Of a stretch of 15,255 nucleotides of DNA, positions 1,578 to 9,703 are shown one piece after another. The notes beneath the pieces were generated by a model. It searched no databases and was not told the origin of the DNA. It saw only the letters and a program-made list of their open reading frames with translations. The DNA is from a bacterium (lineage in GTDB: Bacteria > UBP15 > UBA6099 > DSWB01): the NCBI GenBank assembly GCA_020061125.1, contig JAGUYV010000482.1, positions 1-15,255 on the forward strand, given 5' to 3'. Both the position numbers and the translations under genes were made by a program. How positions within the stretch are numbered: the stretch's first letter is position 1; each line of letters begins with the position of its first letter.

Positions 1578-2339
1578 TCACGGAACAGTTGGAAGATATA
1601 TGCTGAATATTGTTCCGGTCCCCGGGATACTGTTGACATGCAGACTTCCCCCATGGTTTTGAACAATAAACCTGGAAATGAACAAACCGAGGCCGGTTCC
1701 CTGATCTTGAGGTTTTGTTGAATAAAACGGCTCGAATACTCTTTTGATGTGATTCTTCGGAATGCCATGCCCTGTATCGAATACCTTGATCACAGCGTAT
1801 TGCTTCTCGATAGATTCACCGGCGAAAATTTTGCCGTTGATATTCTGCGTTTTTATCATCAGCTTTCCTCCATCCGGCATGGCGTGAATAGCGTTTTTAC
1901 ACAGATTCACAACGACCTGTTCAAGTAGATACTGATCGCCAAGGATGTGCAATGTATCTGGGGAGAGCGCCATGTTGAAACTGATCCCGCCGGGCACAGT
2001 TCTTTTCAGCATGCTTAGAGGTTTTTCAACAATGTCATTCACCGAAATGAGGGATTTTGAAAACTCCATCCCGCGCCCTAGCGATAGCAGGTGTCTGGCA
2101 AGATGCCGCGCGCGCGATGCGGCCGTAACAATTTCCTGAAGTTCCTCGAATCCCGGATGTCCTGGCTCCAACTGCTCAAAGGCGATAGCCGCGTTCCCCA
2201 TGATAATGCCGATCATGTTGTTGAAATCGTGCAACAGTCCACTTTTCACTTGGCTCATGACCGCAACCGTGTCATCCCGGCTTATGCCCGAAATCCACAG
2301 AGAGCGCTTGCGGCTTTGGGCATCCAATACCGTGTCCAT
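1578..2339 (-). CDS. Short soluble sensor-less histidine kinase
   Basis: A 253-residue kinase core of the 'HDFNN' type. Visible blocks: H-box SGLLHDFNNMIGIIMGNA with phospho-acceptor His37; N-box VVVNLCKNAIHAM around residues 142-154; G1 FDTGHGIP (Asp188); F-box FEPFYSTK (203-209); G2 GTGLGL (214-219); and a normal FSIYLP C-terminus. All catalytic boxes are intact, so it should autophosphorylate and pass phosphate to a receiver such as the Asp51 of the protein at 4744-5118 (inference). It has only ~28 residues before the dimerisation helix: no PAS, GAF or membrane segment. Its input must come from a partner, for example the soluble receptor encoded upstream. Start: ATG 2339 has a modest GGGGA 9 nt upstream, and an in-frame TGA lies just before it, so no longer N-terminus is possible. 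It begins 25 nt after the U-run of a strong terminator. Confidence 0.88.
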   Translation of the reverse strand: MDTVLDAQSRKRSLWISGISRDDTVAVMSQVKSGLLHDFNNMIGIIMGNAAIAFEQLEPGHPGFEELQEIVTAASRARHLARHLLSLGRGMEFSKSLISVNDIVEKPLSMLKRTVPGGISFNMALSPDTLHILGDQYLLEQVVVNLCKNAIHAMPDGGKLMIKTQNINGKIFAGESIEKQYAVIKVFDTGHGIPKNHIKRVFEPFYSTKPQDQGTGLGLFISRFIVQNHGGSLHVNSIPGTGTIFSIYLPTVP

Positions 2340-2364
2340 TCCGGATCATCCCCATTCATTCTGT

Positions 2365-2402
2365 AAAAAGGCGGCACAGGACTCTTAACGAACCTGTGCC
2401 GC
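2365..2402 (-). terminator. Intrinsic terminator between the MCP and kinase genes
   Basis: On the minus strand GCGGCACAGG, a 12-nt loop and CCTGTGCCGC form a perfect 10-bp stem (arms 2393-2402 and 2371-2380), followed directly by CTTTTT. It lies 82 nt after the receptor stop codon and only 25 nt before the kinase ATG, so it should end most receptor transcripts just before the kinase gene. Confidence 0.88.
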
Positions 2403-2484
2403 ATTGATCAAATCATGCTGTGACGCATGAGAAAGGGCCTGAATGTCATAAAAGCGTCCGCTCTCGCGGTGACTTTCATAACTT

Positions 2485-4494
2485 TTAGAACTCCCCAAAG
2501 TCCTCGTCGGTGAACGGGATGACGGTCTCGGCGCGCGGCCTTCCGGCCAGAGCGGGTTTTCTTGAATCCGGGCGGGCGCTTGCGCGCTTTGCGGGCAGTT
2601 GCGCTTTGGCCTGTCGCACGAGCTGATGCAGGATGCTGATGTCGAGACCCTGGAGCAACGATGCCGCGGAGTCTGCGGCCAGGGATTGCCGCGCGGCAAC
2701 CTTGAAGTCCCCGACCATGTCCGAAAGCGCCTTTGCCTGGGAGGCGAGTTCTTCGGCCGCGCTCGCAGACTCTTCGGCATTGGAGGCGTTCGTTTGAGTG
2801 ACCTTGTCCATCTGCCCCACGGCGATGTTGATTTGCTCGATGCCCTGCGACTGCTCTTTGGAAGCGGCGGCGATTTCGGACACCAGATTGTTGACCTTGG
2901 TGGCGGCATCGGCGATTTGAGCGAGGGCTCCGCCCACCTCGTCGGCGATGGCCACCCCGTTGTTGGAGTTTTGCGTGGATTCGGTGATGAGGTCAGCCGT
3001 GCTTTTTGCGGCTTCAGCGCTGCGCATGGCCAGGTTTCGCACCTCTTCGGCGACTACCGCGAACCCCTTTCCCGCCTCGCCCGCGCGCGCGGCTTCCACG
3101 GCAGCGTTCAACGCCAGCAGATTGGTCTGGAACGCTATTTCATCAATGGTCTTGACGATCTTCGCCGTCTCCTCGGACGATTTCTTGATGTCTGAAATGG
3201 CCCTGTTCATGCGTTCCATGGCCTGGTTTCCGTTGACGGTGCGTTCATTGGCCTCTTGGGCCAGCGCGCGCGCCTGATCCGCATTTCCGGCGTTTTGTTT
3301 CGTCATGCTGGCCATTTCTTCGAGGCTGCTGGAAATCTCTTCGAGTGAACTGGCCTGTTCTGATGTGCCCTCGGCCACGCCCTGGGCGCCTGCGCTGATC
3401 TGCTCTCCCGCGGCATTGATCTGCCCGACCGCTTCGGCCACCTGCGCCACAATGTCGTGAAGCGCTTTGATGGAATCGTTCAGGTTGGCCACAATGGCTC
3501 CGTACGCGCCCGCAAAGTCTCCGCTGATGTGGACCGTGAGATCCTTGTCCGCGAGTTTCTGGCACGCACCGGTGATTTCGTTCATCGTGGTTTCGATGTT
3601 GACCATGGCTGTGTTGAGGTTTTGCGCGATGGCGCCGAAATCCCCGGTGTACTTGCTTTCGATGCGGCGGGACAGATCGCCTTGCGCCAAGCCCTCGGCC
3701 ACGGTGATGATGTCATTGAGGACATTCTTGCGATCTGTAATATCAAGCACGAACTCCACCGCGCCGATGATATCGCCGCGGTTGTCTTTGACCGGAGCGC
3801 CCGTGTACTCGATGATAATGTCCCGTCCACCTTGGTGAGTGACGGTTTCCGCGGAGAAAACGCCGTCGCGGGTCATGGCCTGGGAGCAGCGGCATTCGGC
3901 GGTGCGGCAGTGGGTCGTTTTGAACAGGTCATAGCACTTGCGGCCGATGCAATCGTCCTGCCGCAGCCCGAGCACATTCGCGCCCGCGAGATTCATGTAG
4001 CGCACGGTGAAGCTTTTGTCTATCGCCATGATTGGCGTTGGAAGGTTTTGGAGATATTCGACTTTTTCCGAGGCGTCGTCCATGGCGCGCCGAGTTTCGG
4101 AGATGTCAACGACATATTCGAGAGCGCCGACGATTGCGCCTGCGGCGTCTTTGACGGGCATGCCCGTATACTGGATGGGCATATTTACGCCGTCCGGGGC
4201 CGCCACGGTCTGGCCCGTAAAAACGCCGTCGCGGCGCATGGCTTGGTCGCAGCGGCATTCGGCGCTCCGGCAGTGGGGCGTCTTGAACAGCTCGTAACAC
4301 TTGCGGCCCGCGCATTGCTCCAAACTCATATTCAGCAGCGCCGCGCCAGCGGGGTTGATGTAGGTGACTTTGAATTCCCGGTCAATTGCCATTACCGGGG
4401 TGGGCAGCATCTCGATGTACTGCTCTTTGAGCGTGTCTTTCACTGTTCCTTGCACTCCGTCACCTGTTGCGGCGTTAACGGGTTTGCTGGTCAT
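2485..4494 (-). CDS. Soluble methyl-accepting chemotaxis protein with two Cys-rich PAS domains
   Basis: A 669-residue cytoplasmic chemoreceptor with no membrane segment or signal peptide. Order: PAS1 (~25-135), PAS2 (~146-255), two HAMP-like segments (~258-350, each with an ADKDLT/AQGDLS turn), then the helical signalling domain with the hairpin tip [21 protein letters not shown] (452-472), which contacts CheA/CheW. The two PAS domains are tandem copies 121 residues apart. Both carry C-x4-C-x8-C-x4-C-x-C with a His before the third Cys: C61, C66, H74, C75, C80, C82, and C182, C187, H195, C196, C201, C203. This suggests metal, Fe-S or redox sensing (inference). After ~600 comes a basic, flexible linker and an acidic aromatic end, FTDEDFGEF, which could tether adaptation enzymes. 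Start: ATG 4494 with AAAGGAGA 6 nt upstream. An intrinsic terminator follows at 2365-2402. Confidence 0.93.
3855..4325 (-). repeat. Internal tandem duplication within the MCP gene (PAS Cys module)
   Basis: The DNA around 3860-3960 and 4223-4323 is clearly similar, offset by exactly 363 bp (121 codons). For example, CGCCGTCGCG occurs at 3861-3870 and 4224-4233, and both are followed by near-identical GCAGCGGCATTCGGCG stretches. It reflects a duplication of one PAS domain, with the Cys motif the best conserved part. Confidence 0.8.
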
Positions 4495-4590
4495 TTTCTG
4501 TCTCCTTTAACATTTTTGAATTATGTTGTCCTCCAGGCCGCTTGCCTGACATAGCATTCCGGATGAACGAAATAATCTTCGACATTTCCA

Positions 4591-4615
4591 AGACGCTGAT
4601 GGTTCACAAGCGTCT
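4591..4615. repeat. 7-bp inverted repeat in the MCP leader
   Basis: AGACGCT (4591-4597) and AGCGTCT (4609-4615) are perfect inverted arms around an 11-nt loop, about 100 nt upstream of the receptor start. There is no U-run, so it is either an operator candidate or a weak leader hairpin. I see no convincing sigma-28 or sigma-54 promoter in the 4495-4743 gap. Confidence 0.35.
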
Positions 4616-4743
4616 GCAAGCGCTATCTCCCCTTCGTCAGACCCCGCGACAGGTTCTGGCCTTTCATTAGTTTGCCAGTCCTTCCATCACATGGAGCTTT
4701 GATTTGCCCGCTTCATAATGCTATGGTTTTGCGTTGCTGTCTC

Positions 4744-5118
4744 TTATTGTCCCGTGTTGCCGTCCGAATGATGCCGCAGCACAACTAACAGCTCCTCTAC
4801 AGTAAATGGCTTAAGAAGAAACGAGCTGTGCGGAGGCGGATGCTTTTCGTGCCTCAAGCTCGCCTCATGAGACGCGGAACAGAATATGATTGGCACATTA
4901 TGCAAACTGACGGTCTCTCTGATTGCTTTCATCGCTGACCACCCATCCATTTCGGGCAGATTCACATCCATGAGAATCACATCGGGATAGACATTCCGCG
5001 CAGTTTCCACTGCGGATGTACCAGTCGCCGCCTCGAACACCGTGTAGCCGGCCACCTTCGCAATTTCACGCAGCAGGCATCTCAAGTCTTCTTCATCTTC
5101 CACGATTAAAAGTTTCAT
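4744..5118 (-). CDS. Stand-alone CheY-like response regulator receiver protein
   Basis: A 124-residue single receiver domain with no output domain. Conserved positions are present: acidic pocket Glu7/Asp8 in LLIVEDEED, phospho-acceptor Asp51 in VILMDVNLPEMDGW, Ser81 in the Thr/Ser switch position (IIFCSAS), and Lys103 in LLKPF followed by the usual Pro. It should therefore be phosphorylated and act by protein contact, either as a CheY or as a phospho-relay shuttle. Between the switch Ser and the Lys it has a His- and Pro-rich segment (SASHEASLRHEKHPPPHSSF) in place of the usual Gly-Ala-(Asp/Asn) loop, which is unusual and could alter the partner surface. The start ATG 5118 has no strong Shine-Dalgarno, only a purine-rich stretch upstream. 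It is co-directional with the MCP gene 249 nt downstream and the LuxR-type gene 469 nt upstream. Being an orphan, its cognate kinase is unknown; the kinase at 1578-2339 is the nearest candidate. Confidence 0.9.
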   Translation of the reverse strand: MKLLIVEDEEDLRCLLREIAKVAGYTVFEAATGTSAVETARNVYPDVILMDVNLPEMDGWSAMKAIRETVSLHNVPIIFCSASHEASLRHEKHPPPHSSFLLKPFTVEELLVVLRHHSDGNTGQ

Positions 5119-5587
5119 GATCTTATCTGTTTCTCTTTTTGTATGTTCAGTTATTTACCAGGACGAAACAAAGTAAGGAGACAGACTATTGGCAAGGACT
5201 TCAGAAACAAATAGTCCGGATCGGCCTGTAGCACTACTTTTGTTCTCCTTAGCAAGAGTTCGGCCGTGCATTCGACAATCCGGCGGTTATTAATCGTGTT
5301 CATCGTTATGATTGCTATCAACGCATCACTTTTTGCCGAACTGATATGGGCGCATAACATGCAACTCTATTTTTAGTGTAGGGACGCTTAAATCGTGAGC
5401 ACAATGCTTGATTTATACTTGGATAACCCTAGCCTTATGTCAGTAGGCAAGCGTGAAAATCTGGAGCATGCGAGTGATGCATCAGGTATGCTTCGAGCAT
5501 TGATTGCATGAAATATTACTGTAACAGAGCCGGTTTTTATCCATCAGAGAAGATTTGCTAGAGGCACTGCCAAGCCTGCCGCATGGA
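5119..5587. other. 469-bp AT-rich spacer, no convincing gene
   Basis: This spacer separates the receiver gene from the LuxR-type gene, both on the minus strand. It contains a 69-codon minus-strand frame (5151-5360). I see no recognisable domain or Shine-Dalgarno for it, so I do not call it a gene, though it ends only 32 nt before the receiver start. The stretch 5477-5509 is an imperfect inverted repeat. No clear promoter or U-tailed terminator was seen. Confidence 0.5.
5477..5509. repeat. Imperfect nested inverted repeat (about 13 bp of pairing)
   Basis: The inner arms ATGCT (5488-5492) and AGCAT (5496-5500) surround TCG. Outside them TCA (5482-5484) pairs with TGA (5501-5503), and ATGCA (5477-5481) with TGCAT (5505-5509), with small bulges. 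It lies ~80 nt downstream of the LuxR-type gene stop on the minus strand. There is no U-run. It may be a 3'-end structure or a binding site. Confidence 0.4.
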
Positions 5588-7324
5588 TTAAGTCATAGAG
5601 GAAAGGTAAGTTTTCAGATTGATGTTTCGGTCCGTAAGGCCGAGTTTTTTGCGGATGGTGTTCCTGTGAAACTCTACGGTGCGAAGTGATACATTCATTT
5701 CAGATGCGATTTTTTTGCTGTAATATCCCTGTTTGATGTAATTTGCGACCTGGACTTCGGTCGGGCTAAGGCATAGTAGCTTTTCAGCAACTTTCCGGCC
5801 ATGAGGCCTAGACATTTCTGCGAAAGCCGCTTCCAGAGCATTGATGTGTTCTTCCTGGAGCTTGTCCAGTTTTGTCCTTCTCATCCGATCAAGAAATGGC
5901 ATGATCAGGGTGTTCAAACTCTCTGAAAACCCTGCCTCCATGTCATTCTTTTCCCTGTCACGATGTTCGGCCAGAACCTTGAGCGCCGTGATCATCTCTT
6001 CAAGACGAATGGATTCCTCGCGCAACTTCTTTTCGTTCTCCCTGATCGCTTCGTCCGCCTTCTTTTTCTCCGTGATGTCCCGAATCACGCTCACGACGAG
6101 ACTAACCTCGCCGTATTCATCGCGTATCACTTTAACCGTTTGAGCAGTTGGGAAAACCGTGCCGTCCTTTCGCCTCATATTCAATTCCATGCGGAACACA
6201 TCGTCTGCGTCAATCGCAGCAATGAGCTTTTTCACATAATCGCCGTATGACCTTCTGGTGACATGGATAAATGCCGTATTTCTACCTATCATCCCTGCTC
6301 TGTCATATCCGAAGATATTTTCCGCTGCGGCATTGCATGAAATGATTTTTCTCGTCCTTGCTTCAATTATGAAAACCGCTTCATCAAGACTGGCGTAAAC
6401 GATTTCAAGCAAATGCGTATGATATTCCAGTTGCTTTTCGAGGTTCTTGCGCTCGGTGACATCAATCTCGACACCGACGATTCCGGCAATATTTTCAGCT
6501 TCGTAAATAGGAGAAGCAAAGACATTAAAAATCCTGCCTTTAGATTCAATTTCACCGGCAACCGATTCTCCTGACAAAACCCTATGAAATACCGATTCAG
6601 CATCTGTGACATCCCCGTCGCTCTCCCTGACCGCCAAGCTTCCGAACAACTCGAAGGCTGAACAACCAACGATGTGACCGCGCTCCATTCCCGATTCATA
6701 AATCCACTTGCCTTCGTGTGTTATGAAGGTGCCCTTTTCATCCGTGGCAAAAATGATGACGGGCAAGCTGTTCAGCACGGCGCGAAGCCATTTCTCCGAT
6801 TGTTGCAGTTCTATCTCCGTAGCGCGACGCTCGAGACATTCCTGTTCGAGTCTTTCAATCTTTTTCTCCAAAGTGTCGTTTCGCTCTTTCAACCATGTTT
6901 CAAATTTCGGAATCAGTTTCTGAAATAAAACTGTCGCATCCGCATCTATAAAAGCGCTGGCAATATCCACGAAAGTTATGATAGCGCCTTCGACGTCTCC
7001 TGATTCTGCCTCGATGGGAACAGCGCTGGTTTTCAACCATAACACAGAGCCATCCGGCCGATTGACCCCGGCAATGGTTTGCATCAGCTTGTTTTCTCGC
7101 AACGCCCTTGCGCCAGCCCTCTCCTGCGGCGGCATTACCGTCCCGTCCGGTTTCACAAGATCGAAATCCTTCTCGAACACATTCCGCTTCCTCATCTCTT
7201 CGCAGGAAAGGCATAACAGACGCTCCGCGGCGGGGTTGGCCATGTGAATACCGCCGTCTGGAGTCACAAAGATTACTCCTTCCTGCATATGCTCGAAAAG
7301 TGTAGCCAGAACCCGAATGTTCAT
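5588..7324 (-). CDS. Triple-PAS sensor protein with C-terminal LuxR-type HTH (transcriptional regulator)
   Basis: A 578-residue soluble protein. PAS1 spans ~1-125 (EHMQEGVIFVTPDGGIHMANPAAERLL) and a coiled coil ~135-175. PAS2 is ~178-292, ending in VEIDVTERKNLEKQLE. PAS3 is ~303-420, with the typical NAAAENIFGYDRAGMIGRN motif and the VIRDITEKK exit. A second long coiled coil runs ~421-460, a helical linker ~461-512, and the HTH ~517-578 (LSPTEVQVANYIKQGYYSKKIASEM...RTVEFHRNTIRKKLGL). The HTH closely follows the LuxR/GerE pattern, so the output is DNA binding. There is no receiver and no kinase domain, so signal must come from PAS ligands. This architecture is common in Desulfobacterota. PAS1 has Cys38 and Cys41. 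The start ATG 7324 lacks a clear Shine-Dalgarno, and an in-frame TGA lies a few codons upstream, so a longer N-terminus is unlikely. It is the first gene of the minus-strand signalling block and divergent from kdsA. Confidence 0.9.
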   Translation of the reverse strand: MNIRVLATLFEHMQEGVIFVTPDGGIHMANPAAERLLCLSCEEMRKRNVFEKDFDLVKPDGTVMPPQERAGARALRENKLMQTIAGVNRPDGSVLWLKTSAVPIEAESGDVEGAIITFVDIASAFIDADATVLFQKLIPKFETWLKERNDTLEKKIERLEQECLERRATEIELQQSEKWLRAVLNSLPVIIFATDEKGTFITHEGKWIYESGMERGHIVGCSAFELFGSLAVRESDGDVTDAESVFHRVLSGESVAGEIESKGRIFNVFASPIYEAENIAGIVGVEIDVTERKNLEKQLEYHTHLLEIVYASLDEAVFIIEARTRKIISCNAAAENIFGYDRAGMIGRNTAFIHVTRRSYGDYVKKLIAAIDADDVFRMELNMRRKDGTVFPTAQTVKVIRDEYGEVSLVVSVIRDITEKKKADEAIRENEKKLREESIRLEEMITALKVLAEHRDREKNDMEAGFSESLNTLIMPFLDRMRRTKLDKLQEEHINALEAAFAEMSRPHGRKVAEKLLCLSPTEVQVANYIKQGYYSKKIASEMNVSLRTVEFHRNTIRKKLGLTDRNINLKTYLSSMT

Positions 7325-7559: not shown

Positions 7560-8390
7560 ATGCACGAAGTCATTGTGAACGGCATCCCGGTGGGAAACGG
7601 AAACCCGTTCCTGCTGGTGGCCGGCCCCTGCGTTATCGAATCCGAAAAAATGTGCCTGGACATTGCGCGCCGGGTGCGCGACATCTGCGGAGAACTTGAG
7701 ATCAGTTTCATCTTCAAGGCATCGTTCGACAAGGCCAACCGCTCCTCGATCAATTCGTATCGCGGGCCGGGCCGCGACCAGGGCCTGCGAATCATGGAGA
7801 AAATCCGGGACAAGGCCGGAGTGGGCATCCAGTCCGATGTGCATTCCTTGGAAGACATCGAGGAGTTCGCGCCTGTTCTCGATGTGCTGCAGATTCCCGC
7901 GTTCCTGTGCCGGCAGACGGACCTTGTGCTGGCCGCGGCCGAGACGGGCAAAACCGTGAACATCAAGAAGGGCCAGTTCCTGGCCCCGTGGGATGTGCGC
8001 AACATCATTGACAAGATCACGAGCGCAGGCAACCGGAGCATCATCATCACCGAACGCGGCACAAGTTTCGGGTACAACAACCTTGTGGTGGATTTCAAGG
8101 GTCTGCCCATCATCCGGCAGTTCGGCTATCCCGTGTGCTTCGACGCCACGCACAGCGTACAGCTTCCGGGCGGCGCGGGCACCAGCTCCGGCGGCCAGCG
8201 CGAGTTCGTGCCGCACCTGGTGCGCGCAGCCATGGCCGTGGGCGTGGACGCGCTTTTCATGGAAGTGCACGAAGACCCGGACCACGCCCTGTCCGACGGT
8301 CCCAACATGGTCACGCCCGAAGACCTGTACCTTATTCTGAAAAACGCTAAACTGTTGGATAAACTGGTCAAGAAAAAGATGATGATATGA
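7560..8390 (+). CDS. kdsA: 2-dehydro-3-deoxyphosphooctonate aldolase (KDO-8-phosphate synthase)
   Basis: A 276-residue, full-length KdsA. It condenses phosphoenolpyruvate with arabinose 5-phosphate to give KDO-8-phosphate, the first committed step toward the KDO of lipopolysaccharide, in the cytoplasm. Family signatures: LLVAGPCVIES, KASFDKANRSS, YRGPGRDQGLRIMEK, DVLQIPAFLCRQTDL, KKGQFLAPWD, FDATHSVQLPGG and GVDALFMEVHEDPD. Cys24 in the AGPC motif, with His198, Glu235 and Asp246, are the metal ligands of the metal-dependent class (as in Aquifex), where metal-independent enzymes have Asn for the Cys. So this is predicted to be a metal-dependent KdsA. The start ATG 7560 has GGGAGA 6 nt upstream. 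The last four bases overlap the lipoprotein start (ATGA), which suggests translational coupling. The kdsC or lpt genes often found beside kdsA are absent here. Confidence 0.96.
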   Translation: MHEVIVNGIPVGNGNPFLLVAGPCVIESEKMCLDIARRVRDICGELEISFIFKASFDKANRSSINSYRGPGRDQGLRIMEKIRDKAGVGIQSDVHSLEDIEEFAPVLDVLQIPAFLCRQTDLVLAAAETGKTVNIKKGQFLAPWDVRNIIDKITSAGNRSIIITERGTSFGYNNLVVDFKGLPIIRQFGYPVCFDATHSVQLPGGAGTSSGGQREFVPHLVRAAMAVGVDALFMEVHEDPDHALSDGPNMVTPEDLYLILKNAKLLDKLVKKKMMI

Positions 8391-9703
8391 GACAAGCCAG
8401 GAAGACCGGATCCTTGAACAAAAAACTTTGTGTTTTGGCGTTCGCGCTGGCCGCGGCGCTCGCCGCCGGGTGCGGAGGAGGAGGAGGCGGCGGATCGTCA
8501 ACGCCCGCCCCGGTAACCCCCACAGGGGACATGTTCCTTATTGTCACGGAGCCTGCTTCAAGCGGAAAAATCTACAGCGCCTCTTCCGTCACCGTGCAGG
8601 GGCAGGCCCTGGCCGGCTCCACAGTCACGGTCAACGGCTCGCAGGTCACGCTCAATTCCGACGGCTCGTTCTCCAGGGCCGTGTCCCTGTCCACCACCTC
8701 GAACCCCACCACCATCACCATAGCGGGAACCGGGAACGGAACCACATACACTGTGTCCCGGCAGGTTTACTACCAGAACCAGAGCCGCTGCACCCTGGTG
8801 TACGCGGCCAAAGACCCGTCATCGGGACGGGATCGGATCTACGACTACGATCCGGCGATCCCCGGGTCGGCGCGCGCCATCAGCCCGGACACCGCCAATG
8901 CCGTGGACAGTTCCCCGGCGTTGAGTCCTGACCGCACAGTGGTGATGTTCGTCCGTGACATCAACGGAACCCAGAGCCTGATGAAAAGCTCATGCGCTGA
9001 CAGCAGCATTAACGCAGCCATCGCCACCGGCGCGCGCTATTCGGCGCCCTCATGGTCACCTAATGGTTTCGATGTGGCGTTTTCCTCGGATGCCGCAGGC
9101 AATTACGAAGTTTATATCATGTCCAACAGCGGCGCAGGACTGCGGCGCGTTACCACGCACGCCGCGCTGGACGACTCGCCTGTGTTCACGGCCGACGGCG
9201 CGACACTGGTTTTCTCTTCGAACCGCGACCCTGCGGGCGGCGCGGGCGTAGCCCAGAAATCGCAGCTCTGGAAAGTCTCCCTAAGCCCTGTCACCGGAAC
9301 TCCCGCCCTGCTCTACAACGCCGCGGCAGGCCAGGGTCCCACATGCCCGCAGGGCGCGGGCAACTGCTCCGCGCTCAACCCCGATCTCAACACCTCGGAT
9401 CAGCTCGTGTTCCAGTTCGAATCCTCGTGCGGAACAACAGACGGCGGCACCGGCGCGCCTGCGGCCACATGCAACAACCTCTACACCATGCCCATGAACA
9501 CGCCCACGGCCATCACGCGCATTGACTGGAGCGCGAACAATTATCACACGCGCCCCCGCTGGAACACCGCGGGCAACGCCATCGTGTTCCTGCGCACAGC
9601 GGCCACCGGGGTGACCTCCGTGATGCAGGCCTCCATCACCGGCGGCGTGCCCGGCGCTGTCTCCGAAACCGGCCTCACGGAATGCTCCGGCCCGGACTGG
9701 TAA
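8387..9703 (+). CDS. Lipoprotein with Ig-like domain and TolB/PD40-type beta-propeller
   Basis: A 438-residue exported lipoprotein. Residues 1-28 are a type II signal peptide: basic N-region, hydrophobic core and lipobox L-A-A-G-C with the acylated Cys29. A run of seven Gly and a Ser/Thr/Pro linker follow. Gly rather than Asp after the Cys suggests outer-membrane sorting. Residues ~48-128 resemble a bacterial Ig-like (glucodextranase B-type) domain, with SVTVQGQALAGSTVTVNG and NSDGSFSRAVSL. Residues ~134-438 hold WD40-like/PD40 blades: SSPALSPDRTVVMFV, SAPSWSPNGFDVAFSSD, DSPVFTADGATLVFSSNRD, LNPDLNTSDQLVFQF and RPRWNTAGNAIVFLRT. Several Cys pairs (e.g. 320/327, 348/362) could form disulfides in the periplasm. 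The start overlaps the kdsA stop by 4 nt. Function unknown; a binding or scaffold role at the envelope is likely. Confidence 0.87.
   Translation: MRQARKTGSLNKKLCVLAFALAAALAAGCGGGGGGGSSTPAPVTPTGDMFLIVTEPASSGKIYSASSVTVQGQALAGSTVTVNGSQVTLNSDGSFSRAVSLSTTSNPTTITIAGTGNGTTYTVSRQVYYQNQSRCTLVYAAKDPSSGRDRIYDYDPAIPGSARAISPDTANAVDSSPALSPDRTVVMFVRDINGTQSLMKSSCADSSINAAIATGARYSAPSWSPNGFDVAFSSDAAGNYEVYIMSNSGAGLRRVTTHAALDDSPVFTADGATLVFSSNRDPAGGAGVAQKSQLWKVSLSPVTGTPALLYNAAAGQGPTCPQGAGNCSALNPDLNTSDQLVFQFESSCGTTDGGTGAPAATCNNLYTMPMNTPTAITRIDWSANNYHTRPRWNTAGNAIVFLRTAATGVTSVMQASITGGVPGAVSETGLTECSGPDW

Follow-up and report, generated by a model that had tools for sequence, protein, structure and literature searches.

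The window (the whole stretch of DNA analysed, 15,255 nucleotides) carries a signalling cluster on its reverse strand (1578-7324), consisting of a PAS-LuxR regulator (5588-7324), a single receiver domain (4744-5118), a methyl-accepting chemotaxis protein (MCP), and a kinase (1578-2339) with a HATPase domain, in which no sensor domain was recognised. In another genome of the same order, a single-receiver response regulator also starts next to a related MCP, on its downstream side (locus L008, after about position 3075). On the forward strand of the window, positions 8387-9703 encode a lipoprotein-like open reading frame (ORF) with a glycine run, a glucodextranase-B-like domain and PD40/TolB-like propeller repeats. 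The MCP is the subject of this study, and its features are as follows:

2485..4494, reverse strand: soluble methyl-accepting chemotaxis protein, PAS-PAS-HAMP-MCPsignal, 669 aa (ORF, domain profiles and hydropathy)
4096..4419, reverse strand: PAS1, three-Cys PAS module (domain profiles, AlphaFold)
4249..4314, reverse strand: PAS1 motif Cys61-Cys66-Cys75-Cys80-Cys82, conserved core Cys66/Cys75/Cys80 (sequence and relatives)
3733..4056, reverse strand: PAS2, three-Cys PAS module (domain profiles, AlphaFold)
3886..3951, reverse strand: PAS2 motif Cys182-Cys187-Cys196-Cys201-Cys203, conserved core Cys187/Cys196/Cys201 (sequence and relatives)
3601..3720, reverse strand: HAMP_2 signal-relay domain, residues 259-298 (PF18947, 38.4 bits)
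2797..3264, reverse strand: MCPsignal domain, residues 411-566 (PF00015, 158.6 bits against a cut-off of 34.6)
2488..2502, reverse strand: C-terminal DFGEF, which fits the xZxxZ criterion for CheR/CheB-binding pentapeptides (PMC7390727)

A soluble receptor with two cysteine-rich PAS domains

The PAS region of the MCP matches PAS_4 (PF08448) in two stretches at 122.3 bits (Pfam). Because the highest mean hydropathy over 19 residues is 1.1, against 2.6-3.1 in the membrane-bound relatives L016 and L008, the protein lacks a transmembrane stretch and is a soluble, cytoplasmic chemoreceptor, in agreement with the preliminary description of this DNA. The sister receptor L016 ends in DFDDF, compared with DFGEF here.

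Each PAS domain bears the motif C-x4-C-x8-C-x4-C-x-C, with a His immediately before the third Cys and an offset between the two copies of exactly 121 residues, just as the preliminary description had reported. On the reverse strand of the window, the Cys codons of PAS1 run from 4312-4314 (Cys61) to 4249-4251 (Cys82), and those of PAS2 from 3949-3951 (Cys182) to 3886-3888 (Cys203). Ten of the 11 cysteines of the protein fall in the two motifs, the remaining one being Cys311. The two domains are 58% identical as proteins; at the DNA level, their identity is 0.83 over a 96-nt segment spanning the motif, 0.65 when the entire domain is compared and about 0.6 beyond the motif, which bears out the earlier remark that the DNA is strongly alike around it. 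Where the two domains have identical amino acids, the codons also match at 19 of 25 positions in the motif (12.8 expected from codon usage) and at 15 of 35 outside it (15.1 expected). This higher synonymous agreement inside the motif (inside versus outside, Fisher p = 0.017) gives a weak hint of gene conversion between PAS1 and PAS2, which we do not put forward as a claim.

Three of the five cysteines are conserved

Starting from an initial small alignment, a scan of one genome per species found 36 loci; a second scan covered 395 genomes from the phylum of a Desulfobulbaceae member, with matches accepted at E 1e-10 or better. Domain borders in the relatives were set by profile, independently of the Cys motif. 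Each of the middle three cysteines (C-x8-C-x4-C) is present in 151 of the 152 distinct domains scoring at least 80 bits, while the first Cys occurs in 29, the last in 95 and the His in 112 of them. Among the 150 domains that bear the core, the first Cys is found in 28 and the last in 93; the two occur together in 14, not above the chance level (odds ratio 0.54, Fisher p 0.19). Since the core is present in every close relative, the motif in the window MCP is, on this comparison, not a product of chance.

As a Cys-containing profile favours Cys-bearing matches, we also ran a motif-blind control, in which 22 motif columns of alignment A5 were masked and the domains found were re-scored with the masked model. 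The core was present in all 25 domains scoring at least 60 bits and in 11 of 12 at 40-60 bits; at 25-40 bits it was present in 16 of 28, ten had no such motif, and ordinary Cys-free PAS domains began to appear. The three cysteines are also retained where their spacing is altered, as C-x8-C-x3-C in sigma-54 activators and C-x10-C-x2-C in looser relatives.

Because the core is near-invariant, the motif-blind search included, while the other two cysteines vary, we conclude from the alignments that the three core cysteines define a PAS subclass (C-x8-C-x3/4-C in the Ealpha-Falpha segment), to which both PAS1 and PAS2 belong, and that the first and last cysteines are accessory. The preliminary description had treated all five as one element and had proposed aligning family members to see whether they co-vary; in that alignment the middle three are conserved and the outer two show no co-variation, so that a five-Cys unit is ruled out by the independent variation of its first and last members. 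Five-Cys PAS domains do occur elsewhere: both PAS domains of L019, from a Pirellulales metagenome-assembled genome (MAG), have all five, and a version lacking the His is found in L075 (994-1875, reverse strand) and in L076-L083, in proteins of about 300 aa. By Pfam, L075 is a PAS-STAS protein and may regulate a different output in response to redox state.

PAS1 and PAS2 are not sister domains

In domain trees, PAS2 groups with L006, L008 and L016 (support 0.88 for the full tree and 0.94 with the motif masked), and it is 68% identical to L006 and 63% to L016, both of which are the single PAS domains of membrane-bound MCPs in the window's order. PAS1 groups with the first PAS domains of the other tandem MCPs L018 and L021 in the full tree (support 0.85), and its position is unresolved in the motif-masked tree. 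Because PAS2 thus joins membrane MCPs of the same order and PAS1 joins other tandem MCPs, the trees indicate that the two are not sisters and hence not the outcome of a local duplication, which is ruled out by the trees with and without the motif. The earlier idea of a duplicated element therefore does not hold, and one to seven tandem copies are ordinary in this family: many proteins have two to six three-Cys PAS domains, and receptors of Desulfobulbaceae have up to seven.

L034 (2185-6036, forward strand) encodes seven closely similar three-Cys PAS domains at a spacing of 122 residues, together with a divergent Cys-bearing N-terminal PAS; N-terminal PAS domains akin to the latter occur in other Desulfobulbaceae, with motifs such as TCEEACPTQLCGTKDC. 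A receptor of Methanolobus vulcani (L048, 1171-5010, forward strand) combines two three-Cys PAS domains with six HAMP_2 stretches.

Distribution and gene context

In the one-genome-per-species scan, carriers were found mainly in Desulfobulbaceae, Methanolobus and MAGs; the two named lineages are anaerobes. Three-Cys PAS domains occur in at least 227 of the 395 genomes of the Desulfobulbaceae phylum (E 1e-10 or better, with the best 12 candidates per genome scored for many genomes), so that the element, described earlier as rare, is common there, and the earlier impression that Cys-bearing PAS domains are common in Desulfobacterota is supported. In a 98-genome sample around the window, a match was found in 10 of the 91 genomes outside the window's order, a contrast with the phylum sample that is indicative, the two samples having been drawn differently. 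At least one of these genomes, G029, seems to be shared with the phylum sample, since its match and that of G141 lie at identical contig positions.

Three-Cys PAS domains occur on MCPs (some with Cache or four-helix sensors, others with neither), Cache histidine kinases, sigma-54 activators and a STAS protein, and by this spread of domain architectures the domain is a mobile module. Genes for three-Cys PAS MCPs have CheA (L023, L046 and L047) or CheW (L006) as neighbours, and in the Desulfobulbaceae-type genomes of L024, L027 and L030 a protein of about 510 aa with three CheW domains is encoded directly upstream of a multi-PAS receptor. Because CheA, CheW or three-CheW genes adjoin them, a chemotaxis output is well supported by gene context for the MCP forms. 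For some flanking ORFs of three-Cys PAS loci, a Pfam scan returned no family.

Predicted structure

Residues 16-265 of the window MCP were modelled with AlphaFold2, together with 37 tandem relatives, at a mean pLDDT of 90.9. In the model both PAS domains adopt the canonical fold (VIA Z 15.1 to the single PAS domains 3b33 and 3lyx); the tandem fold matches NifL, MmoS and DosP, and the nearest solved folds also include FixL, all four being PAS sensors that bind a cofactor. Residues 46, 51, 60, 65 and 67 of the modelled fragment correspond to Cys61, Cys66, Cys75, Cys80 and Cys82. Cys61 is placed at the end of a short helix, Cys66 opens the short helix Ealpha (fragment residues 51-54), Cys75 and Cys80 belong to an irregular loop that is modelled with confidence (pLDDT blocks of 89 and 95), and Cys82 lies in the first turn of Falpha (fragment residues 66-73).

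The Ealpha/Falpha side of the PAS fold is its usual cofactor-binding side. In alignments to PDB profiles, Cys66 is aligned with the photoactive Cys of LOV domains, which faces the cofactor pocket. The predicted loop, ordered though irregular and carrying cysteines next to the pocket, fits a metal site. Sequence searches of the PDB, of which few alignments were examined, revealed no solved structure with the three-Cys motif.

What the three cysteines may bind

From the observed conservation, domain linkage and predicted fold, we infer that a metal centre is bound by the three-Cys PAS domain, an Fe-S cluster being the likeliest, and that it drives redox or gas taxis; we give this reading a probability of about one half. 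The invariant C-x8-C-x4-C, on and between Ealpha and Falpha, would ligate the metal centre, above all an iron-sulfur cluster held on three cysteines and sensitive to O2, NO or redox state, with a fourth ligand that may be variable or exogenous (the cysteine of the C-x-C pair, the His, or none) and with the first and last cysteines as accessories. Altering the cluster would displace Falpha and the beta-sheet, and this movement would be relayed by the helical linkers and HAMP to the signalling tip, where it would alter CheA activity and so produce redox or energy taxis; this route from cofactor to CheA is drawn from general knowledge of PAS-HAMP-MCP receptors. Metal ligands are favoured because the three cysteines are retained through changes of spacing (C-x8-C-x4-C, C-x8-C-x3-C and C-x10-C-x2-C); an odd number of cysteines makes a poor structural disulfide. 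The analysis supports the proposal of the preliminary description that these PAS domains hold a Cys-based cofactor or redox site. Fe-S precedents are the PAS domain of NreB, with a four-Cys [4Fe-4S] cluster (PMC4601167, PMC10468136), and the sensor NsrR, whose cluster is held by three cysteines (PMC4601167).

A zinc site or a thiol switch would leave the same Cys conservation as an Fe-S cluster. In the more probable of these alternatives, which we still rate as unlikely, the ligand is a zinc ion, structural or sensory, that is held by the three cysteines plus either the His or the C-x-C Cys and steadies the Ealpha-Falpha loop, while the PAS domain senses another ligand or zinc itself. Three cysteines plus a His or Cys are a standard zinc set, and a candidate fourth ligand (the His, the last Cys or both) is present in 135 of the 152 domains scoring at least 80 bits; neither is present in the other 17, nor at those columns in any of the 20 domains at 50-80 bits, which argues against a general fourth protein ligand, and zinc would leave the lineage bias unexplained. 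A short motif query gave a weak, non-significant match to the ribosomal zinc-finger-like L40e (E 0.57), and the cytoplasmic PAS domain of WalK binds zinc, according to a title cited in PMC10468136. Ranking after zinc, and doubtful, is a metal-free thiol switch, in which the core cysteines would respond to oxidants or reactive sulfur by forming a disulfide or persulfide. Sulfur-cycling anaerobes are numerous among the carriers, and some three-Cys PAS domains sit on sigma-54 activators; another sigma-54 regulator, FisR, senses persulfide, in Cupriavidus via cysteines of its regulatory domain (PMC7315123), a likeness in regulator type. However, a two-Cys switch cannot account for three invariant cysteines that are retained despite changes of spacing.

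That the cysteines merely stabilise the fold, with no cofactor, and that the PAS domain has a small organic ligand or serves purely as a signal relay, is improbable: the model is a canonical PAS fold and many PAS domains have no known ligand, but three near-invariant cysteines in cytoplasmic MCP, histidine kinase, sigma-54 and STAS contexts are hard to explain without a function. Least likely of all is the haem sensor suggested earlier, in which haem b would be ligated by the His next to the third Cys or by one of the cysteines. The closest solved folds include the haem PAS domains DosP and FixL, and the His is present in 107 of 114 close relatives; it is not kept in the wider ones (5 of 38 domains at 80-130 bits and 0 of 20 at 50-80 bits), in which the cysteines persist, and the 669-aa protein contains no CxxCH, so that it also falls outside the c-type haem PAS domains of the GSU0935 kind.

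Few bacterial sensors are as common as PAS domains, and to our knowledge the sensors by which anaerobes steer towards or away from gases and redox conditions are poorly assigned. With three-Cys PAS domains in over half of the genomes sampled from the Desulfobulbaceae phylum and up to seven repeats per receptor, identifying what binds the three cysteines would serve to annotate a large number of sensors together, on MCPs, kinases and sigma-54 activators alike. We tentatively suggest that these domains may form an unrecognised class of site-differentiated Fe-S sensors common to the chemotaxis, two-component and sigma-54 systems of anaerobes, in which receptors with two to seven copies could act as a graded or co-operative redox array.

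Comparison with known systems

Neither PAS sensors with cysteines nor chemoreceptors with tandem PAS domains are new in kind. The three-Cys subclass is seemingly uncharacterised and may be described elsewhere: a search mainly of openly available papers turned up none that deals with this motif in PAS domains, and the Pfam and NCBIfam matches of the window MCP comprise general PAS, HAMP and MCP models, none dedicated to a three-Cys PAS. The papers and structures searched likewise named no ligand for this arrangement, as the preliminary description had supposed.

The window MCP shares the PAS-HAMP-MCP layout of Aer2 and Aer, and its top NCBIfam match is Aer2 of Vibrio, at 286.7 bits against a cut-off of 1200 for the equivalog NF041847, which leaves it outside that family. 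The PAS domains of Aer2 and Aer carry haem and FAD, respectively (PMC10468136), whereas the Cys core is a different element. MmoS and NifL resemble it in their tandem PAS fold (Z about 15) and differ in being FAD sensors (PMC10468136). Among PDB profiles the best match is the LOV domain 6rhg (E 1.2e-10), whose photoactive Cys in GRNCRFLQ aligns with core Cys66 (GRKCYELF); only this Cys and the flanking G-R agree, the rest of the LOV motif past the Cys is missing from the window MCP, and the second and third core cysteines are missing from LOV. A further parallel is NreB of Staphylococcus, compared here by description, which is also a cytoplasmic PAS with a Cys cluster and in which Fe-S sensing, proposed for the window MCP, has been shown, by an O2-labile [4Fe-4S] cluster (PMC4601167, PMC10468136). 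NreB is a histidine kinase with four Cys ligands, whereas each PAS domain of the window has five cysteines, of which the family conserves three, as C-x8-C-x4-C, often in MCPs and in tandem.
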